Shown here piece by piece: positions 14,597 to 28,562 of a DNA stretch of 37,190 nt. Numbering within the stretch: the stretch's first letter is position 1; every line of letters begins with the position of its first letter. The translations under genes were made by a program, and so were the position numbers. Source of the stretch: Bathymodiolus heckerae thiotrophic gill symbiont. Its GTDB lineage: Bacteria; Pseudomonadota; Gammaproteobacteria; PS1; Pseudothioglobaceae. The stretch is taken from contig NZ_FQTP01000006.1 in the NCBI RefSeq assembly GCF_900128515.1, forward strand, positions 1-37,190. Direction: 5' to 3'. Under the pieces are notes generated by a model. That model was not told the DNA's origin, made no database searches, and was given only the letters and a program-made list of their open reading frames with translations.

Positions 14597-15628
14597 TTAT
14601 TCTTCAGGATCTATGATTTCGCCGTTTTTAGCAGCTTGAATAAACTTTAATTTATTCAACAATCGTTTCATGCTATCAACATCTAACTGTGTGGTGTTAT
14701 CTGAATTATATTCATCTGAATCTGTAATATCTTTATCACCATCTTCCACATACTTGGCATAATTCAAATCACGCAGATCCGGTGGTATTTTATAATAATC
14801 ACCCATATCAAGAGCACATGCCATTTCTTCTTTAGATAACAAAGACTCATATCGCTTTTCACCGTGCCTTGTACCGATAACTCGAGTAGGATAGCTAGAC
14901 TTTCCCATTAGATCACAAAGAGCTTGCGTCATGATTCTAACTGTTGCTGCAGGCGCTTTTTGAATAAAAATATCGCCAGGATTTCCATTGTCAAAAGCAA
15001 ATAGAACCAAATCCACTGCATCGTCCAATGTCATCATAAAACGTGTCATGTTTGGATCTGTTAGAGTTAACTCTTTGTTTTCATGAATAAGTTCCACAAA
15101 TAACGGAATGACAGAACCTCTAGATGCCATCACATTGCCATATCTAGTGACACAAATTATTGTTTTGTCACCCCCTTGTCGAGATTTAGCAATAACAACT
15201 TTCTCCATCATTGCTTTGGATATGCCCATAGCATTAATTGGATATACCGCCTTGTCCGTACTTAAACAAATAACTCTCCTCACATTAGCATTAATCGCAG
15301 CGGTCAGCACATTATCAGTGCCAATTATGTTGGTTTTAACCGCTTCAATGGGATGAAATTCACATGATGGCACTTGTTTTAATGCGGCTGAGTGAAAAAT
15401 GTAATCTACATCTCTAACGGCATTCATTATCGAGTCATAATCTCTCACATCACCAATATAGAACTTAACTCTATCGTCGGCATATTGACGTCTCATGTCA
15501 TCTTGTTTCTTCTCATCGCGGCTAAATATTCTAATTTCCTTAATATCAAGCTTTAAAAAACGGCGTAATACGGCGTTACCAAAAGAGCCCGTTCCACCAG
15601 TAATTAATAAAATTTTATTTTTAAACAT
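14597..15628 (-). CDS. wbjB: UDP-GlcNAc 4,6-dehydratase/5-epimerase (WbjB/CapE)
   Basis: The 343-aa SDR protein has TGGTGSFGNAVLRRFL at residues 10-25, the family HSAALKQVPSCEFHPIEAVK segment near 80 and LSTDKAVYPINAMGISKAMM near 121. The catalytic tyrosine of YxxxK is Met here (MGISK), which is characteristic of CapE/WbjB rather than PseB (usually YGATK). It converts UDP-GlcNAc to UDP-2-acetamido-2,6-dideoxy-beta-L-arabino-hexos-4-ulose, the first step to UDP-L-FucNAc. That product is also the PseC substrate, and no PseB gene is in the window. A 62-base gap separates it from the gene upstream, which has room for an internal promoter. Confidence 0.93.
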   Translation of the reverse strand: MFKNKILLITGGTGSFGNAVLRRFLKLDIKEIRIFSRDEKKQDDMRRQYADDRVKFYIGDVRDYDSIMNAVRDVDYIFHSAALKQVPSCEFHPIEAVKTNIIGTDNVLTAAINANVRRVICLSTDKAVYPINAMGISKAMMEKVVIAKSRQGGDKTIICVTRYGNVMASRGSVIPLFVELIHENKELTLTDPNMTRFMMTLDDAVDLVLFAFDNGNPGDIFIQKAPAATVRIMTQALCDLMGKSSYPTRVIGTRHGEKRYESLLSKEEMACALDMGDYYKIPPDLRDLNYAKYVEDGDKDITDSDEYNSDNTTQLDVDSMKRLLNKLKFIQAAKNGEIIDPEE

Positions 15629-19957: not shown

Positions 19958-20905
19958 CTAATACAAATTAATATTTTCAAATTTGGATCCAAAGGCTTCT
20001 GCATATCTAACAAGAGATGTTCTAGGGCCAATCAATTTTTTTGATTCTGACAGCATCTCCATCTCAAGAATAATATTATCGCTACACAATACAACCAATC
20101 CTCTTGAAATATTTGTTAACATTAATTCAAGTTCATTTTTTGCTTTTATATCTGCACTAAAACCAGGGTGTAACTTTATAACACCTCCATCAGGCATTCT
20201 ATCAACTAAAGCTTTTAACATGGATTCCCATTGATTATGGGCAACTCGCCGAGGAGCCGGGGTAAGTCCAATAGTTTTAATACCTGTAAGTTTTGGTTTG
20301 TATTTTAACAAGGCGACACTATAATCATTTAAAATTTTACGCTTACAGTTTGGAGCTAGAGGAAAAACATCGGGAAGTATTCCGATAAAAGCTAAAGCAT
20401 CATCACGAAAATAATCTTTAAAATCATTCCTCCTGCTATTTCTATACCTTAGCCTACTTTTCCAAATATTTAACTGATTAGCGGTATAAGGCTTATAGAG
20501 CCCATAAGACAACCACCCTTCTTCAAGATAAATATGACCTGCACACAAGGGCAAACATAGCAATCCTTCTACATCTGGATAGTTCCATGAAGTGTATAAT
20601 AAAAAACGATCATTATTCTTCCTAACCACATTTGCAATACGCCTACCAAATGGGGTTTTTCCAAAAATTTTTGTATATATTACGTCATACCACCTGGGTG
20701 GCGGATTAATGGGTTTTTTTTCTATAATAGATGTATCTGTATTGCGCATGGAAATACAAACTATTTTATCTGACTGAATGCCATATGTATCAATAATGAT
20801 ACGTACAATCATAGCCACTACCGGGTTGCTAATCATAAACACATGCTGATAATCATTATCAATAGCATATTGAATACCGCTTGGTACAAGAGTCTTTTTA
20901 TTCAA
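19958..20905 (-). CDS. Putative glycosyltransferase, weak likeness to sialyl-/polysialyltransferases
   Basis: About 315 aa, no transmembrane segment. I see HIYLEEGWLSYG near residue 130, VIKLHPGF near 245 and IGPRTSLVRYAEAFGSKF near the C-terminus. The pattern of an acidic E-[ED]-G-x-x-S-Y, an H-P pair and a late G-x-x-S-S/T-x-x-x-x-A segment recalls GT-B sialyl- and polysialyltransferases, so a nonulosonate transferase role is plausible in this cluster. The likeness is by eye only. I prefer the TTG at 20905 behind AGGGGTGG; a TTG at 20920 overlaps the upstream stop. No ATG is available near the start. Confidence 0.5.
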   Translation of the reverse strand: MNKKTLVPSGIQYAIDNDYQHVFMISNPVVAMIVRIIIDTYGIQSDKIVCISMRNTDTSIIEKKPINPPPRWYDVIYTKIFGKTPFGRRIANVVRKNNDRFLLYTSWNYPDVEGLLCLPLCAGHIYLEEGWLSYGLYKPYTANQLNIWKSRLRYRNSRRNDFKDYFRDDALAFIGILPDVFPLAPNCKRKILNDYSVALLKYKPKLTGIKTIGLTPAPRRVAHNQWESMLKALVDRMPDGGVIKLHPGFSADIKAKNELELMLTNISRGLVVLCSDNIILEMEMLSESKKLIGPRTSLVRYAEAFGSKFENINLY

Positions 20906-20912
20906 ACCACCC

Positions 20913-21683
20913 CTATTCAATTAAAAAAAATTTAGCACGCTTAAGCCAAGGTTTTATATCGTAAAGCCTCCAAAACAAAAAAGAATAAATCTTGTCATTT
21001 ACACTTTTCTGACGCTTTTTCAAGTTGAGGCTTTTTACACTTGTTGCAGCTTTATAAATTTGAGAAATAGAGAGGTCATATTTAAATTGTTCAATATCCT
21101 CATAACTCATAGTGTCAGGATGGAGGCATATAGTCCACACCCCATATTTTTTTTTCTTTACACTCCATAATTGTTGCGGAATAAAATAAAAGCTTCTTTC
21201 GTAGAAAGGGTATTGAGCAATACCGTCGCTAACTATATTAATATTTGTCTCACAAAGTAAAGCCCGCAATGTTTTACTATCAAAGCTATGCGAAGGAGCC
21301 ACCCAAACTTTTGGATCAAATCCATTTTTACGAAATACGTCTATTGATTTTCTTATTTTTTCTTGTTGCTTCTTAAATGTCAAGCCTGCAAATTCACTTC
21401 TATCATAGTAAGGGAAAAGTAGCTCTTTTCGATTTACTTTATGATACAAATGCTGGTATCCATGCATAGCAATTTCCCAACCTTTGTCCTCCCACTCTTT
21501 AATTAATTTCCAAAAATTAGGATTTAACTCTTGATACATAAGATCTGGATCTCTATTGTCAGGCGTTACTGCAACAATTGGAACAATGCCATACTGCTGA
21601 AATATTTCCTCAATAGCCTTCCATTTTTTAGTATCCATAAATGAAGTGGCATCATCAAGTCTAAATATATATCTAGCTTTCAT
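20913..21683 (-). CDS. Polysaccharide deacetylase-like protein (DUF2334 type)
   Basis: The 256-aa product has a NodB-like fold pattern: FRLDDAT at residues 7-13, PIVAVTPDN near 35, EIAMHGYQHLYH near 70 (the metal-binding H-x3-H pair), VWVAPSHSFD near 127 and ICLHPDTM near 185. This fits the DUF2334/polysaccharide deacetylase group. It lacks a signal peptide, so it is likely cytoplasmic and may act on a nucleotide- or lipid-linked sugar. Removal of an N- or O-acetyl group from a cluster sugar is inferred. It starts 12 bases after the GT2 fusion gene. Confidence 0.78.
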   Translation of the reverse strand: MKARYIFRLDDATSFMDTKKWKAIEEIFQQYGIVPIVAVTPDNRDPDLMYQELNPNFWKLIKEWEDKGWEIAMHGYQHLYHKVNRKELLFPYYDRSEFAGLTFKKQQEKIRKSIDVFRKNGFDPKVWVAPSHSFDSKTLRALLCETNINIVSDGIAQYPFYERSFYFIPQQLWSVKKKKYGVWTICLHPDTMSYEDIEQFKYDLSISQIYKAATSVKSLNLKKRQKSVNDKIYSFLFWRLYDIKPWLKRAKFFLIE

Positions 21684-21695
21684 TTTTTTGCCATT

Positions 21696-23093
21696 TTATT
21701 TATTTTTTAAATTTAAAAAATCAAGCGTATCAGATGTCTTTACTTGGATGCTTTCATCGGGTGACATCTCAACATATCCTATTTTTTCGCCAAACACTCC
21801 ATGTGTTTTTAACACTTGCCACCAAGTTGAAATAATTGAACCATTAAAATGATATAGACGCTCTCGATCAAACGTTAAGTCTTGAAAACGCCCTGGATTC
21901 AAAAGATTTAGTCCATCTTCTCCATGAGAAAATATTGGCTCTCTCTCCTCTTGAACCGATACCACTGAGTCACTTTCTGTAATTCTAAGTACATCTAAAA
22001 CTGTATCAATATGCTTAGTTTGACGACATACCGCATGAAGATTTAGGAATGTTATTACATCTGGAGCAAAGCCCTTTATGTTTTCATAATAATCCCCGGC
22101 ATCAAGCATAAAGCTCTGAATTGGTATATCTCTGGACATCTTTGTATTTTTAGATCGCTTTAGTCGTAAATGCTTTGGAACTTTACCCTCATCCTCTAAG
22201 CGCTTAGAGTAGTCTAATACATTTTGACTCTCAGACGAAACAACTACATCGTTTATTTTGTCTGATCTAGCCGCAACAAGAATAGCCTTCTCAAGCAGGG
22301 AGTGCCCATCAAACTCCCGATAAGGCACATTCTCAAAATTAGGGTATGATTCACGAACCGGAATTATAGCTATACAAGTTATGTCATAATCCCCTTCCAA
22401 CCCTTCGCTAATACGTTTAAATATTCCATTGCGCGCATCAAGAAGTCGTTTAGAGTCGCGACTCATTGAATCTCCATGTTGTCGATAGTAAAATATTGGA
22501 ATGTTTAAGCTCGCTGCTCCGATACGATTGAACAATTTATACCAAAGATCCCATCCATCTTGAGCACTAACAGATTCAGAATACCCTCCAACATTTTTTA
22601 GTGCACGCGTATTAAACATTGTGCACGCTCCATGAGGAGCTAGATGTCCTGCCATATCCTCTACACCTAGCTTATGACGATATTCCATATCTAATATTTT
22701 TCCATCTATATCTACATAGAAATAATTTCCATAAACCATGCCTATATCGGGATTATTTTCTAACTTTGTTACCATACTCAAAAGAGCAGTTTCATCTAGC
22801 CAATCATCTGCATCTAGTCGCACCATATATTTACCATTAGCACGCCCTAAGATATAATTTGATAACTTTTGTAAACCAAGTGGTTTGTGATTTTTAACAA
22901 AAGTAATACGATTCAATTCTTTACGACTAAATTCTTCGGCGATAGTAGATGTGTCATCAGTAGATGCCTCATCAACAATAATCAACTCCCAATTAGTATA
23001 CAGTTGAGATAGAATGCTTTCAACACACTGCGTTAAAAAACAACCGTAATTTCTACACGGTACATAAATTGTCACAAGTGGGTTAGAAGACAT
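21696..23093 (-). CDS. GT2 glycosyltransferase fused to a CMP-sugar synthetase (NeuA-like) domain
   Basis: The 465-aa protein has two parts. Residues 1 to about 235 are a GT-A family 2 glycosyltransferase: VTIYVPCRNYGCFLTQCVES, ELIIVDEASTDDT, VRLDADDWLDE (the DxD region near 92) and HGDSMS. From about residue 238 a second domain starts with IAIIPVRESYPNFENVPYRE and continues with NDVVVSSES, FLNLHAVCRQ and RLYHFNGSIIST, following the outline of CMP-nonulosonate synthetases. The nucleotide loop lacks the usual Gly/Ser/Lys residues of PARGGSKRIPRKN. A bifunctional GT/CMP-synthetase would activate and transfer a sugar. Such fusions are known (for example NeuA-CgtA in Campylobacter). Confidence 0.75.
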   Translation of the reverse strand: MSSNPLVTIYVPCRNYGCFLTQCVESILSQLYTNWELIIVDEASTDDTSTIAEEFSRKELNRITFVKNHKPLGLQKLSNYILGRANGKYMVRLDADDWLDETALLSMVTKLENNPDIGMVYGNYFYVDIDGKILDMEYRHKLGVEDMAGHLAPHGACTMFNTRALKNVGGYSESVSAQDGWDLWYKLFNRIGAASLNIPIFYYRQHGDSMSRDSKRLLDARNGIFKRISEGLEGDYDITCIAIIPVRESYPNFENVPYREFDGHSLLEKAILVAARSDKINDVVVSSESQNVLDYSKRLEDEGKVPKHLRLKRSKNTKMSRDIPIQSFMLDAGDYYENIKGFAPDVITFLNLHAVCRQTKHIDTVLDVLRITESDSVVSVQEEREPIFSHGEDGLNLLNPGRFQDLTFDRERLYHFNGSIISTWWQVLKTHGVFGEKIGYVEMSPDESIQVKTSDTLDFLNLKNK

Positions 23094-23105
23094 TAATAAT
23101 CACCT

Positions 23106-24818
23106 TTATTCTAAGTTATAATCTATACCATTAATAATTGCACAATAAGGCTCAAGATCACGCATTGCTTTAGCCCCTATTAAAAGGTATGCATCTCTAG
23201 CGTCAGTTCCATGCGCAGGTCGAAGACATATTAAATCTTTGAACTGTATTAGTTCACCTGCATTAATATGTCGATTTACATAAACTCCGCGACGAAAAGA
23301 TATTTCATGCTTATTATCTAGTTCACTTTGCTGAGGAATTTTTATCCCGTCACCCCGCAACGTAACAATTTTGGATACATCCGACTTTAATTGCAATACT
23401 TCTTCAGCGACAAGTGACACTTGATGATCTCGAAATGTTTTACCTTTACGAAAATCGGTAAAATGAAATTCTAACACGTCAGCACCCATAGCTGCAGCAC
23501 CACGAAGTGCTGCCATTCCAATAGTATGATCAGAATATCCCACTGCAAGTCCAGTAGTCGATCTAAGGGAGTCCATCACCAATAAATTAGCATCGCTATC
23601 GGGAATAGGGTACATAGATGTACACTGCATAATGCAAAGCATATCTGCTTCGGAATAAATAGAATTTATACTTTGAATATACTTAACTGTCTGCAATACT
23701 TCATCCATTGACGACAAGCCAGTGGAAAGCAAAATAGGCTTACCCCTAAGAGCAAACTCTCGAAGTAATGGCCATGCAGTCATGTCTCCAGAGCCTATTT
23801 TGTAAAAGTCAAGATATGGATCGATCCAATCTAGCATTTCCATACTCCACACAGAAGCAAGATAGATCACACCAGATTTACGACACATTTTAGCTAAAAA
23901 TATATGCTGAGCCTTGGTTAGCTCAAATTTCTTAAAATGCGAGTTTCGATCAGGACTTTCGACAGGGCTAACCAATGTATCGGCATTGTATAATTGTAAT
24001 TTCACACAATCAGAACCAGAGTCAATAGCTTGAATTACCATGCTTTTTGCTACACTAAAGTCGCCTTCATGATTACCTCCAATTTCGGCAATAAGCATAG
24101 GTCCAGATTCGCCCTTCCACAGTGACAGGGTATCATTTCTGGTTGCAGCATTATAAATTTGTTTTAAATTTAACATGGATAAAGATGTTTTAGATCGGTA
24201 AGCAATCTTATTTGCTAATTTGATATCTTTCAAAGTATCAATAGCTAAATGCAAGCCAGAAGCCTCTGGGCATTCTTGATTGATATAAACATATCTATCT
24301 CCAAATTCAGAATTATCATACAAGTAAGACGTAACATGCTCGTGATGTCCAGAATCTTCCATACGTGAAACAACTATACGATAGAAATCAACCTTCATGA
24401 TTTCTATACTCATTCCATACGGGAATGTTCTACCTGGAACATTTGTCACAAAGTCATACTGAGCGGTATCTGCTATTGCCAACATAGCATGTAAAGAGTT
24501 GATATCGACAAATAGATTGTCTCCATTGATACGAACAGCATAATCCCAATTATACGAATCAGCACAAGATAAAAAACGACTAGACACATCATTTAAACTC
24601 CCTCTGAAGCATTTAATTCCAGCTCTTTGGCAGTAGGATGCTATCGGATTGTCACTTTTATCTATAGAAGTCGCCACTACCAAAGGCCTTGAGGATGCAG
24701 CCAATTGAACTCGCTCTACAATATAACTTAATATTGTTCGACCCTGGATTTCAGTAAGTATCTTTCCTAGCAAACGCCTTGAATTATATCGGCACAGTAT
24801 AATAATTCCAATTTTCAT
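23106..24818 (-). CDS. Cytidylyltransferase-nonulosonate synthase fusion (SpsF-like + NeuB-like + SAF)
   Basis: The 570-aa protein joins three domains. Residues 1 to about 230 begin GIIILCRYNSRRLLGKILTE and have RINGDNLFVD, as in SpsF/KdsB-type cytidylyltransferases. From about 240 a NeuB-type barrel follows: MLIAEIGGNHEGDFSVAKSM, CVKLQLYNADTL, YKIGSGDMT, LLSTGLSSMDEV and VGYSDHTIGMAALRGA. The usual EKHFT is EFHFT here, with the following RDHQVS intact. The last 65 residues form an antifreeze-like SAF domain (RRGVYVNRHINAGE...IGAKAMRDLE). It should condense PEP with a six-carbon amino sugar and activate the product with CTP. The substrate is unknown. It overlaps the acetyltransferase gene by 4 bases. 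Confidence 0.82.
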   Translation of the reverse strand: MKIGIIILCRYNSRRLLGKILTEIQGRTILSYIVERVQLAASSRPLVVATSIDKSDNPIASYCQRAGIKCFRGSLNDVSSRFLSCADSYNWDYAVRINGDNLFVDINSLHAMLAIADTAQYDFVTNVPGRTFPYGMSIEIMKVDFYRIVVSRMEDSGHHEHVTSYLYDNSEFGDRYVYINQECPEASGLHLAIDTLKDIKLANKIAYRSKTSLSMLNLKQIYNAATRNDTLSLWKGESGPMLIAEIGGNHEGDFSVAKSMVIQAIDSGSDCVKLQLYNADTLVSPVESPDRNSHFKKFELTKAQHIFLAKMCRKSGVIYLASVWSMEMLDWIDPYLDFYKIGSGDMTAWPLLREFALRGKPILLSTGLSSMDEVLQTVKYIQSINSIYSEADMLCIMQCTSMYPIPDSDANLLVMDSLRSTTGLAVGYSDHTIGMAALRGAAAMGADVLEFHFTDFRKGKTFRDHQVSLVAEEVLQLKSDVSKIVTLRGDGIKIPQQSELDNKHEISFRRGVYVNRHINAGELIQFKDLICLRPAHGTDARDAYLLIGAKAMRDLEPYCAIINGIDYNLE

Positions 24819-25374: not shown

Positions 25375-26865
25375 TTATTTTGTAAAAAACTGCTCTAAAA
25401 GATGTGTCACACCTTCAAATTCAGACTTAACAAAAGTTTTGTCTAAATAATGAGAAAACCTGTTTTGTGCACTATGATTTTGACATCCTGGCACGGCGTA
25501 TAATTCTTTTTCAGATAATAGAAAATTGATAATTTCCCTTGTCTCTGATATTCTTTTCTTCGTAATATTTTCAAAGGAAAAATTGTCACTCCATGATGTA
25601 ATATTTGGACAACCATTAAACCAAGAGTCTCCAAATATTAAGGCTTTCTTATTCATTACTGCAGCCTCCAATGCAACACTACCGCTAATAGTTGCGACAA
25701 AAATACTATGCTTTACCAACTCTAAGGAATTTATATTTTCAGAAACCAATTTCACTCCATTAACATTTTTAATAAGGTCATAAAACAATGGACTTCTTCC
25801 ACGAGAGCCTTTATCAGCCATATAAAATTGCGATGGATGTTCTTTGACAAAAATATCAACATCATCTGGTAATTGCTTTCTTAGCCTAATTATAGCAATA
25901 ACTTGGTCGTGAAAATCTCCACCATCCGGATTAGTTGTTCTTTCAGGTTCAAAGTGAAGTGCATAATAAACATATTTTTTCGCTAAATCTACAGATTCCT
26001 GCTTTCTTTTAAACTCATTAAGTAAATTTTTCTTCCGTAATCTCTTAATTTTTGACCTGCCAAAAAAACCTATTCTGAATGGATTGATATGATAATAGTC
26101 CTTCTTATAAGACATACGAATTTGAAACCAGGACTCCTTAATAAGAACCATACACCCTGTTTTAATAAAAGTAATAACGCTATTTACCCACTTCGATTGA
26201 AGTCTTTGAGATTTCATATAAGATAGCTCGTAATTATCTCTAGATTTTATATTCGTAATAGAGTCTATGTAATTAAGCACATCACCTTCTATACGTTTAG
26301 ACAAGCTTTTATCAATTTTTATTTTATTTTTCTGTCGAACTCCTGACTTAATATATTGTAAAAACAATAATGGAACTGGCATCCAGGTATTAAATTTAAC
26401 AATCTCTATGTCTAAATATATGCATATTTCATATAATAAATATTGCGCATGAGAATGAGGGTTTTCCACCACAACCAAAGCATCCGGCTGAGACTCCTCT
26501 ACCCTCTTCAATATCCAAATAGCTAATTTATTAAAAATAGCCTCTCTATCTATTCTTCCAAAGGTGCCATATAAGTCAAGCCTATCCATCATCTTTAAAC
26601 ATCTATCCTTAGCGCGTAAATAGTGTTTAGATGAAAAAAATTCAATATTTTCACCATTGTAATTAATATTTTTTATATTTTGTTGATAATGAACAAAGTC
26701 CAACATCCGAACAACAACATCCCCTCCGAAAACCTTAGTTGCTTTATGGTAATGACAATCATCACCAAGCCATAATACTGGTTTTGCAACACCTCTTTCA
26801 TATAGGTCGATAGCGGAATCTAGCCAAACTTTATTACCGGTCATGCAATAGCAGTATTTTTTCAT
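25375..26865 (-). CDS. Capsule-type GT-B glycosyltransferase (KpsS/KpsC-like)
   Basis: The 496-aa protein lacks membrane segments. The C-terminal half has YYALHFEPERTTNPDGGDF near 307, IFVKEHPSQF near 345 and VATISGSVALEAAVMNKKAL near 400, the sequence outline of capsule polysaccharide biosynthesis proteins of the KpsS/KpsC type. Some of these use CMP-linked 2-keto sugars (Kdo). Lying directly after pseI and before the second nonulosonate genes, it is a good candidate for a pseudaminate or related transferase; that is inference. The N-terminal 250 residues have no motif I recognise. Confidence 0.7.
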   Translation of the reverse strand: MKKYCYCMTGNKVWLDSAIDLYERGVAKPVLWLGDDCHYHKATKVFGGDVVVRMLDFVHYQQNIKNINYNGENIEFFSSKHYLRAKDRCLKMMDRLDLYGTFGRIDREAIFNKLAIWILKRVEESQPDALVVVENPHSHAQYLLYEICIYLDIEIVKFNTWMPVPLLFLQYIKSGVRQKNKIKIDKSLSKRIEGDVLNYIDSITNIKSRDNYELSYMKSQRLQSKWVNSVITFIKTGCMVLIKESWFQIRMSYKKDYYHINPFRIGFFGRSKIKRLRKKNLLNEFKRKQESVDLAKKYVYYALHFEPERTTNPDGGDFHDQVIAIIRLRKQLPDDVDIFVKEHPSQFYMADKGSRGRSPLFYDLIKNVNGVKLVSENINSLELVKHSIFVATISGSVALEAAVMNKKALIFGDSWFNGCPNITSWSDNFSFENITKKRISETREIINFLLSEKELYAVPGCQNHSAQNRFSHYLDKTFVKSEFEGVTHLLEQFFTK

Positions 26866-26884: not shown

Positions 26885-27931
26885 TTATAAATGTTTAAAT
26901 TGAACTGCTGTTCCTGATTCTATATCACAACAGACTTTCTTTCCAAGAATATCATCAAGAAATTTTGGCAAAACTCCATAACCAGGCCTAATACTTCTTA
27001 CATGATCCTTGGTAATTATCTCACCTTCTTTGATATTTTTTACAAAATACAACGAACGTCGAAATTTTACGTTAGCCTGTTCGCTCGATTTTCTACCATA
27101 ATCAACCTGTCCAAGCGATTCCCATGCGGTTTTAGCCCCTACACACAATTGCTTTAATTCTTCTGATTCAAGTGAAAAAGAATCGTCAGGACCGCCGCCA
27201 TTACGATCTAGAGTTACATGTTTTTCAATAATTGATGCGCCTAATGCGACACTAGTAATTGCTGTCGTGTTGTCAATTGTGTGGTCTGACAAACCAGTAA
27301 CTAATCCAAATTTGCCCTGCATATCAGCCAGTGTTCTTAAATTATAATCGGCTGCTGGTGCAGGGTAGCCGCTCACACAATGAAGTATGGCCAACTCTTT
27401 ACACCCTCCTTCTCGAGCAGCTTCAATAGCTTCTTGAATTTCTTGTGTATCTGCCATACCAGTTGAGATAATCATGGGTTTTCCAGTTTGAGCTACATAT
27501 TTTATCAAAGGAAGATCCACCGCCTCAAAAGAGGCGATCTTATATGCTGGCGTATTTAAATCTTCTAATAGATCAACAGCGGTATTATCAAATGGAGAGC
27601 TAAATATCGTAATACCAACTTTTTTTGCATAATCGAATAATGGTTTATGCCATTCCCATGGCATAAATGCGCTTTTATATAGTTCATACAAGCTTTGTCC
27701 AGACCAAAGCCCCTCCGTTAATTGGAAGTCTGACAAGGTACTATCAATTGTTAAAGTATCAGGAGTATAGGTCTGTAACTTTACACAATCAGCGCCTGAT
27801 GACTTGGTCATATCTATAATCTTATATGCATTATTAATATCGCCATTATGGTTTGCTGACATTTCAGCAATAATATAAGGTGTAAAACTATTTCCAATTT
27901 TTCTACCGTTGATTGTAATAAAGTCACTCAT
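26885..27931 (-). CDS. pseI: Pseudaminic acid synthase (PseI)
   Basis: About 348 aa from the ATG at 27931, which is preceded by GAGAAG; a TTG four codons earlier is less likely. The NeuB-family barrel shows YIIAEMSANHNGD near residue 20, CVKLQTYTPDTL, FSSPFDNTAVDLLE, YKIASFE, ISTGMAD and SDHTIDN, then IIEKHVTLDRNGGGPDDSFS near 240. A C-terminal SAF domain follows (RRSLYFVKNIKEGE...ILGKKVCCDIESG). The AEMSANHNG and GGGPDDSFS forms are typical of PseI rather than NeuB. It condenses PEP with the 6-deoxy-AltdiNAc sugar released by PseG. It overlaps the formyltransferase gene by 8 bases. Confidence 0.94.
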   Translation of the reverse strand: MSDFITINGRKIGNSFTPYIIAEMSANHNGDINNAYKIIDMTKSSGADCVKLQTYTPDTLTIDSTLSDFQLTEGLWSGQSLYELYKSAFMPWEWHKPLFDYAKKVGITIFSSPFDNTAVDLLEDLNTPAYKIASFEAVDLPLIKYVAQTGKPMIISTGMADTQEIQEAIEAAREGGCKELAILHCVSGYPAPAADYNLRTLADMQGKFGLVTGLSDHTIDNTTAITSVALGASIIEKHVTLDRNGGGPDDSFSLESEELKQLCVGAKTAWESLGQVDYGRKSSEQANVKFRRSLYFVKNIKEGEIITKDHVRSIRPGYGVLPKFLDDILGKKVCCDIESGTAVQFKHL

Positions 27932-28562
27932 TATTCTTCTCAATTATTATATTAAACTTTACTCCATCTTTATAAAAGTAAGCAGGGAATCTTTTTGGGT
28001 CGCATACTCTTATTAAATCGAACTGCTCGTATATAGTTTGATTTATATCAATTACACTATCCTTTGGTGATCTTTTTGGCCAGCATTCGCCATCAAAATT
28101 AGGCTGTTTTTTTGGCTCTATAGTATTGTAATTTTCAATTGCAAAATCCATTAATGCTAGCTCTGAATCAAAAATTAATTCATTAATTTCATCAAAAAGG
28201 GCTGTTTTTGGAATTGACACACTAATCTTCTTCCAAATATCACCAGTGTCGACTTTGTTCTCAGCTTCTAATAAGCTTAAGGTAATATCAGTTGCTCCAT
28301 TAATAATTTCCCACACATGTGGACTCCAACCTCTACCATATGGCAAGTCACTTGCATGAACAACCAGCGTTTTATTAAACTTCTTTCTTTCTGACTTCGA
28401 CACTATGTCAGAACATGATATTAAGAATAAAATGTCGCCAGATGTTATTTCTTTCTTTGAATGGATGATATTTATTTGATGACTTTTATTTGTTTCTACC
28501 CATTTATTTACATAAGTATTTACAGGATGTTCTATAGACGTAATCAATATTGAAATATTCAT
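27924..28562 (-). CDS. Formyltransferase-family protein in the pseudaminate set (PseJ-type)
   Basis: The 212-aa protein has the formyltransferase core LVVHASDLPYGRGWSPHVWE near 87, then ITLSLLEAENKVDTGDIWKK, with His and Asp of the usual N-x-H...D set. The Asn two residues before His is Val here, as I recall for this subgroup found beside pseI and pseG. It sits between pseG and pseI, overlapping both, where other clusters have the acetyltransferase PseH; no PseH-like GNAT is in the window. N-formylation of the amino sugar, giving a 7-N-formyl pseudaminic acid, is the likely result (such forms are known in Pseudomonas). Donor would be 10-formyl-THF. Confidence 0.78.
   Translation of the reverse strand: MNISILITSIEHPVNTYVNKWVETNKSHQINIIHSKKEITSGDILFLISCSDIVSKSERKKFNKTLVVHASDLPYGRGWSPHVWEIINGATDITLSLLEAENKVDTGDIWKKISVSIPKTALFDEINELIFDSELALMDFAIENYNTIEPKKQPNFDGECWPKRSPKDSVIDINQTIYEQFDLIRVCDPKRFPAYFYKDGVKFNIIIEKNNE

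Follow-up and report, generated by a model that had tools for sequence, protein, structure and literature searches.

What is a domain shaped like a CMP-sugar synthetase doing at the end of a glycosyltransferase when the loop that should hold its nucleotide has been rewritten? The question is raised by a gene in the genome of the Bathymodiolus heckerae thiotrophic gill symbiont, within a stretch of 37,190 nucleotides that we refer to as the window. The first-pass annotation of this gene described a GT2 glycosyltransferase fused to a domain with the overall course of NeuA, and left three readings for that domain: a specialised synthetase, a sugar-binding module, or an inactive partner of the GT2 domain. 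The parts of the gene and its closest partner are collected in Table 1.

Table 1. Coordinates in the window of the fused gene, its parts and the neighbouring synthase fusion.
Feature	Position	Strand	Basis
Whole gene, 465 aa, ATG start	21696..23093	(-)	Open reading frame; GT2 domain and NeuA-like domain, the latter a predicted pseudo-cytidylyltransferase
GT2 domain, residues 1-227	22413..23093	(-)	Pfam PF00535, E 7.6e-26; DxD and Gln178-Asp179-Gly180
NeuA-fold domain, residues 238-465, predicted catalytically dead	21699..22382	(-)	Profile match with 6ifd at E 2.4e-24; superposition with Z 26.0 across 211 residues
Altered nucleotide loop IIPVRESYPNFENVPYRE, residues 243-260	22314..22367	(-)	Pro251, Val256 and Pro257 stand where NeuA has Lys16, Lys21 and Asn22
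Region aligned with the NeuA dimerisation arm, residues 382-415	21849..21950	(-)	Conservation profile of 84 members; family-specific His390, Gly394, Arg410 and Glu411
Altered metal motif SIQVKTSDTLDF, residues 448-459	21717..21752	(-)	Gln450 and Lys452 take the positions of NeuA Asp209 and Asp211
Partner gene: SpsF-type CMP-transferase (about 1-235) and NeuB-type nonulosonate synthase (about 240-570)	23106..24818	(-)	Pfam CTP_transf_3 and NeuB

The C-terminal half of the window protein falls short of the relevant profiles when taken by itself. It reaches 13.8 bits (E 0.052) against the Pfam family CTP_transf_3 (PF02348; cut-off 22.6), stays below the cut-off for PseF (E 0.0015), and scores 21.2 bits where the PseF equivalog TIGR03584 demands 205.7. 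Among family members, 67 of 78 match CTP_transf_3 at E 0.01, and a profile built from 78 relatives finds the solved NeuA structures 6ifd (E 2.4e-24) and 1eyr (E 7.4e-24). The AlphaFold2 model is of high confidence for the domain (pLDDT 95.5) and for the whole protein (pLDDT 95.2, pTM 0.91), and the best structural matches of the domain are CMP-nonulosonate synthetases (Z 23-26), with GlmU, KdsB, TarI and IspD lower at about 19-20. The window domain shares its fold (Z 24-26), including the dimerisation-arm region, with NeuA or CMP-N-acylneuraminate synthetase (1eyr, 6ifd), CMP-Kdn synthetase (9t4z) and CMP-pseudaminate synthetase (9ftb). Profile and superposition thus bear out the NeuA-like course, rule out a chance likeness, and dispose of the different fold that the first-pass annotation had named as a counter-case. 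What sets the window protein apart from NeuA-type synthetases is the loss of the nucleotide loop and of the metal aspartates, together with the fusion to GT2.

The window protein is one of many. We found a relative at 65% identity in another family of the same class, one more elsewhere in the phylum, and one at 31% identity on a viral contig that also encodes a terminase large subunit. Scans with the C-terminal half, whether of genome contigs with the single protein or of viral contigs with profiles, returned no relative, and the GT2-half patterns HGACTM and QDG..LW did work. A four-member profile was then searched against about 85,000 species genomes and the best 80 of 174 loci were kept; in all 80 of these the match is a GT2-NeuA fusion. 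With the window included, our alignment has 84 rows, representing 83 distinct proteins because L023 and L066 encode an identical one, and a one-off fusion or assembly artefact is therefore ruled out. This set, with its 80 best loci out of 174, covers Gamma-, Alpha- and Deltaproteobacteria, Bacteroidetes, Omnitrophota, Nitrospinae, Nitrospirae, Chloroflexi, Acidobacteria, Planctomycetes, Verrucomicrobia and others, and there are also two archaeal bins (Woesearchaeota and Pacearchaeota) and one phage contig; bins may be contaminated, so that a single taxon assignment is no proof. The proteins vary little in length (median 463 aa). In the tree, the fused NeuA-like domains group in a single clade that contains no ordinary NeuA (support 0.999). 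Members were sampled by GT2 motifs, so the family as drawn here is bounded by its GT2 clade. Fusions of this kind are rare in the class to which the window belongs, being present in 1 of 273 sampled genomes besides that of the window, and the other profile matches there are free-standing NeuA. A public plasmid of Azospirillum argentinense carries a full-length relative annotated just "glycosyltransferase family 2 protein", with an overlapping NTP-transferase gene directly after it and a synthase gene nearby.

Across this family the catalytic residues of NeuA are largely gone. In NeuA, Arg12, Ser15, Lys16 and Lys21 contact the phosphates and Asn22 the ribose, Gln104 serves sugar binding and catalysis, and Asp209 and Asp211 hold the Mg ion (PMC2901514; PMC6580227); in the N. 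meningitidis enzyme, D211A cuts kcat by a factor of 15,000, and the effect of D209A is larger still (PMC2901514). We used this enzyme as the reference and aligned to it by two methods, which gave the same result for the nucleotide and metal sites. In the window protein Arg12 is kept as Arg247, the rest of the loop reads Tyr250, Pro251, Val256 and Pro257 in place of Ser15, Lys16, Lys21 and Asn22, and Gln104, Asp209 and Asp211 have become Asn351, Gln450 and Lys452. The carboxylate-binding Arg165 aligns with Thr407 here, a position that is Arg or Lys in 65 of 84 members. Lys21 and Asn22 occur in none of the 84 fused domains and in all 25 ordinary NeuA controls, nine of which were taken with the same profile from genomes of the window's class; Lys21 is mostly replaced by Val, Leu or Ile, and Asn22 by Pro, Ala or Val. 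Asp211 is present in 12 of 84 fused domains versus 24 of 25 controls, Asp209 in 2 of 84, and the Arg12 position is Arg or Lys in 66 of 84. The unusual loop (IIPVRESYPNFENVPYRE, residues 243-260) and late motif (VKTSDTLDF, residues 451-459) singled out at the start are real; they go beyond what chance would give and are not peculiar to this one protein. Based on these data, we conclude that the C-terminal domain is very probably a dead NeuA. An inactive partner of GT2 is the initial reading that gains support, given that the loop is lost family-wide, the metal aspartates are lost in most members, and the fold and the GT2 residues are kept. A working CMP-sugar synthetase, specialised or otherwise, is unlikely.

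Loss of the active site has gone together with conservation elsewhere in the domain. The nucleotide-site columns drop from the 93rd conservation percentile in ordinary NeuA to the 40th in the fused family. Sugar-site columns are about average in both, which rules out using conservation of the sugar pocket as proof of nonulosonate binding. Several family-specific residues that rank among the best conserved (Phe388, His390, Gly394, Arg410, Glu411 and Tyr414) fall in the region that aligns with the NeuA arm, and Asp375, His390 and Gly394 are near-invariant, family-specific positions of the domain. In NeuA this dimerisation arm is swapped between subunits, covering and reaching into the active site of the partner (PMC6580227). 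The shift of conservation from the nucleotide site to arm residues indicates that the domain is being maintained and is not decaying at random.

The GT2 domain is apparently intact and, from its sequence, predicted to be active. Residues 8-165 match Glycos_transf_2 with 91.5 bits against a cut-off of 23.3, and the DxD motif is Asp94-Ala-Asp96. Asp46, Asp94 and Asp96 are found in 83 of 84 collected members (one row ends short there) and Asp179 in all 84, and since the sample was chosen by HGACTM and QDG..LW, part of the conservation seen in these two motifs follows from the way members were picked. The nearest solved GT2 relative by sequence is the chondroitin synthase K4CP (2z86, 2z87; E 2e-22), which differs from the window protein in having a second GT2 domain and in lacking a NeuA domain. 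By fold, the first match is a Leptospira glycosyltransferase (6p61), whose solved chain is a single GT2 domain, again unlike the window protein.

The genomic setting links the family to nonulosonate synthesis. In the window the gene sits in a surface-polysaccharide locus on the minus strand and, as had been pointed out, adjoins a synthase fusion: the SpsF-NeuB gene is 12 bp distant, and its SpsF part keeps 25 of 26 family-conserved residues. The locus continues with PseI, a formyltransferase-like gene, PseG, an ordinary PseF and PseC. In a neighbourhood of about 8 kb, 74 of 83 loci encode NeuB, and a contig end cuts short seven of the other nine; over the same distance SpsF is found at 57 loci, a NeuA-type gene at 21, and one or the other at 70. 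In 40 of 74 cases, no more than 100 bp separate the fused gene from the closest synthase or SpsF gene on its strand. For comparison, a small set of 15 viral loci whose GT2 relatives are not fused has no NeuB, and about 45% of genomes in the window's class have any NeuB-family match. No other neighbour family is present at a third of the loci, and the GT2-NeuA protein is the only glycosyltransferase common to most of these cassettes.

The fold, the family-wide loss of catalytic residues, the single clade and the gene coupling are computed results, and on them we place a tentative best explanation, to which we give somewhat less than an even chance: an active GT2 carries a dead NeuA as a dimerisation and positioning module, and a neighbour activates the nonulosonate. 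Dimerisation, acceptor binding and the donor type are what we infer. The neighbouring NeuB would make the nonulosonate and the neighbouring SpsF, or a NeuA, would activate it with CMP. The former CMP-nonulosonate synthetase domain, its nucleotide and Mg binding gone, would make no CMP-sugar; its NeuA-type arm would pair GT2 domains, and the dead domain may keep an acceptor that carries a nonulosonate close to the GT2 site. The GT2 domain would take an NDP-sugar donor through its DxD and add an ordinary sugar to the nonulosonate, which would in this way be built into a surface glycan. A DxD is typical of NDP-sugar users, and a GT2 bearing one is not expected to use CMP-sugars. Sialyltransferases are usually without a DxD, and the GT2 protein SpsA of B. 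subtilis does not transfer legionaminic acid (PMC7439481); from these two points and the DxD of the fused family we propose that the ordinary sugar is added next to the nonulosonate. Three observations count against this explanation, namely the average conservation of the sugar-site columns, the Thr407 that aligns with Arg165 in the window protein, and the standing of GT2-NeuA as the sole glycosyltransferase that most of the cassettes have in common.

The main rival holds that the protein is itself the nonulosonyltransferase of the cassette, with a GT2 domain that uses CMP-nonulosonate and a dead NeuA that holds and hands over the CMP-sugar made by the neighbour. Such a cassette needs a transferase, and being the only glycosyltransferase common to most NeuB and SpsF loci would fit this role better than it fits our best explanation. 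We nevertheless consider it unlikely: the DxD is kept throughout where sialyltransferases usually have none (PMC7439481), the loop that holds ribose and phosphate is lost, and the window offers other candidates at 19958-20920 (EEG and HP motifs) and 25375-26865 (Capsule_synth). The broader form of the claim, that the proteins constitute a widespread nonulosonyltransferase family beyond the known sialyltransferase families, using a CMP-nonulosonate donor with the dead NeuA as donor carrier, is rather improbable. We give similarly little weight to a docking role, in which the dead domain pairs with the active SpsF, NeuA or NeuB fusion, either to form a synthase-activation-transfer complex or to control the active enzyme. 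Gene adjacency is constant and the arm of NeuA does reach into the active site of its partner (PMC6580227), but the types of CMP-transferase swap while the fused protein stays. In particular, a heterodimer with NeuA is disfavoured as a general rule, because the partner is mostly SpsF (57 loci) and less often NeuA (21).

We think it very unlikely that the domain has diverged into a still active nucleotidyltransferase that takes different substrates or arranges its metal differently. The frequent Arg or Lys at the Arg12 position and the non-random changes at Lys21 and Asn22 would suit such an enzyme, but both loop residues and Asp209 are lost, conservation of the site has fallen, and intact CMP-transferases adjoin. 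Another idea, that the domain is left over from a formerly bifunctional protein and has no role today, starts from a decayed active site and from the working glycosyltransferase-NeuA gene cgtA/neuA1 known in C. jejuni (PMC7248181); against it, the domain is full length across many phyla, keeps its near-invariant Asp375, His390 and Gly394, and gives a well-folded model, and we regard it as highly improbable.

Parts of this arrangement have been described before. In Campylobacter jejuni, cgtA/neuA1 (orf5/10) joins a glycosyltransferase and NeuA as one gene in a sialic acid locus (PMC7248181), and since it is counted there among the sialic-acid-making genes we take its NeuA part to be active; that of the window protein is predicted to be inactive, and the two are set apart by this description. 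The sps cluster of Bacillus subtilis (SpsE, SpsF, SpsA) likewise combines a NeuB-type synthase, SpsF and a GT2 for legionaminic acid, but SpsA is without a NeuA domain and is not a CMP-Leg transferase (PMC7439481), unlike the window fusion. A glycosyltransferase-NeuA gene (PMC7248181), the NeuA and SpsF families, and pseudoenzymes as a kind are therefore already known. Our search of the open-access literature found no description of a widespread GT2 family with a dead NeuA tied to nonulosonate cassettes; of the counter-case named in the first-pass annotation, a common and well-described fused family, the first half holds and the second finds no match in these papers. The family is a clear case of a cytidylyltransferase turned pseudoenzyme and joined to an intact transferase, and it warns against calling NeuA-like domains synthetases on the strength of their fold alone. 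Many bacterial surfaces are coated with nonulosonic acids, and to our knowledge the transferase is not known in many nonulosonate loci. The cassette of synthase and CMP-transferase spans many bacterial phyla and two archaeal bins, and the family provides a defined protein for testing which sugar links to the nonulosonate.

Several other genes in these loci deserve mention. The window gene at 19958-20920, without a Pfam or NCBIfam match, lies downstream in five loci and has invariant EEG and KxHP motifs, which we take to resemble those of bacterial sialyltransferases; it is a candidate nonulosonyltransferase, and its assignment to a known transferase was rejected because Pfam and PDB gave no informative hit. 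For PseB, the first step of the pseudaminate path, every gene of this genome scores below the cut-off, the best match being an FnlA-type dehydratase (14597-15628). Between PseI and PseG, where the gene for an acetyltransferase (PseH) is expected, the window has the formyltransferase-like gene (27924-28562), which may lead to an N-formyl pseudaminic acid. In two loci the SpsF part of SpsF-NeuB is decayed, with 17 of 26 (L008:6461-8194) and 9 of 26 (L047:5946-7622) conserved residues, and each has a separate SpsF gene nearby; these parts may be another pseudoenzyme of the cassette. Another type of GT2 protein with a NeuA-like C-terminal part and an odd loop (L045:15046-16422, L086:4538-6028) belongs to a different GT2 branch, and its NeuA part falls outside the main fused clade. 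In L100:6228-7400 a NeuA-like domain with an odd loop is followed by an apparent HAD phosphatase domain. Lastly, the phage contig with a terminase gene (L026:1047-9338) carries NeuA-like, NeuB-like and GT2-NeuA genes together.
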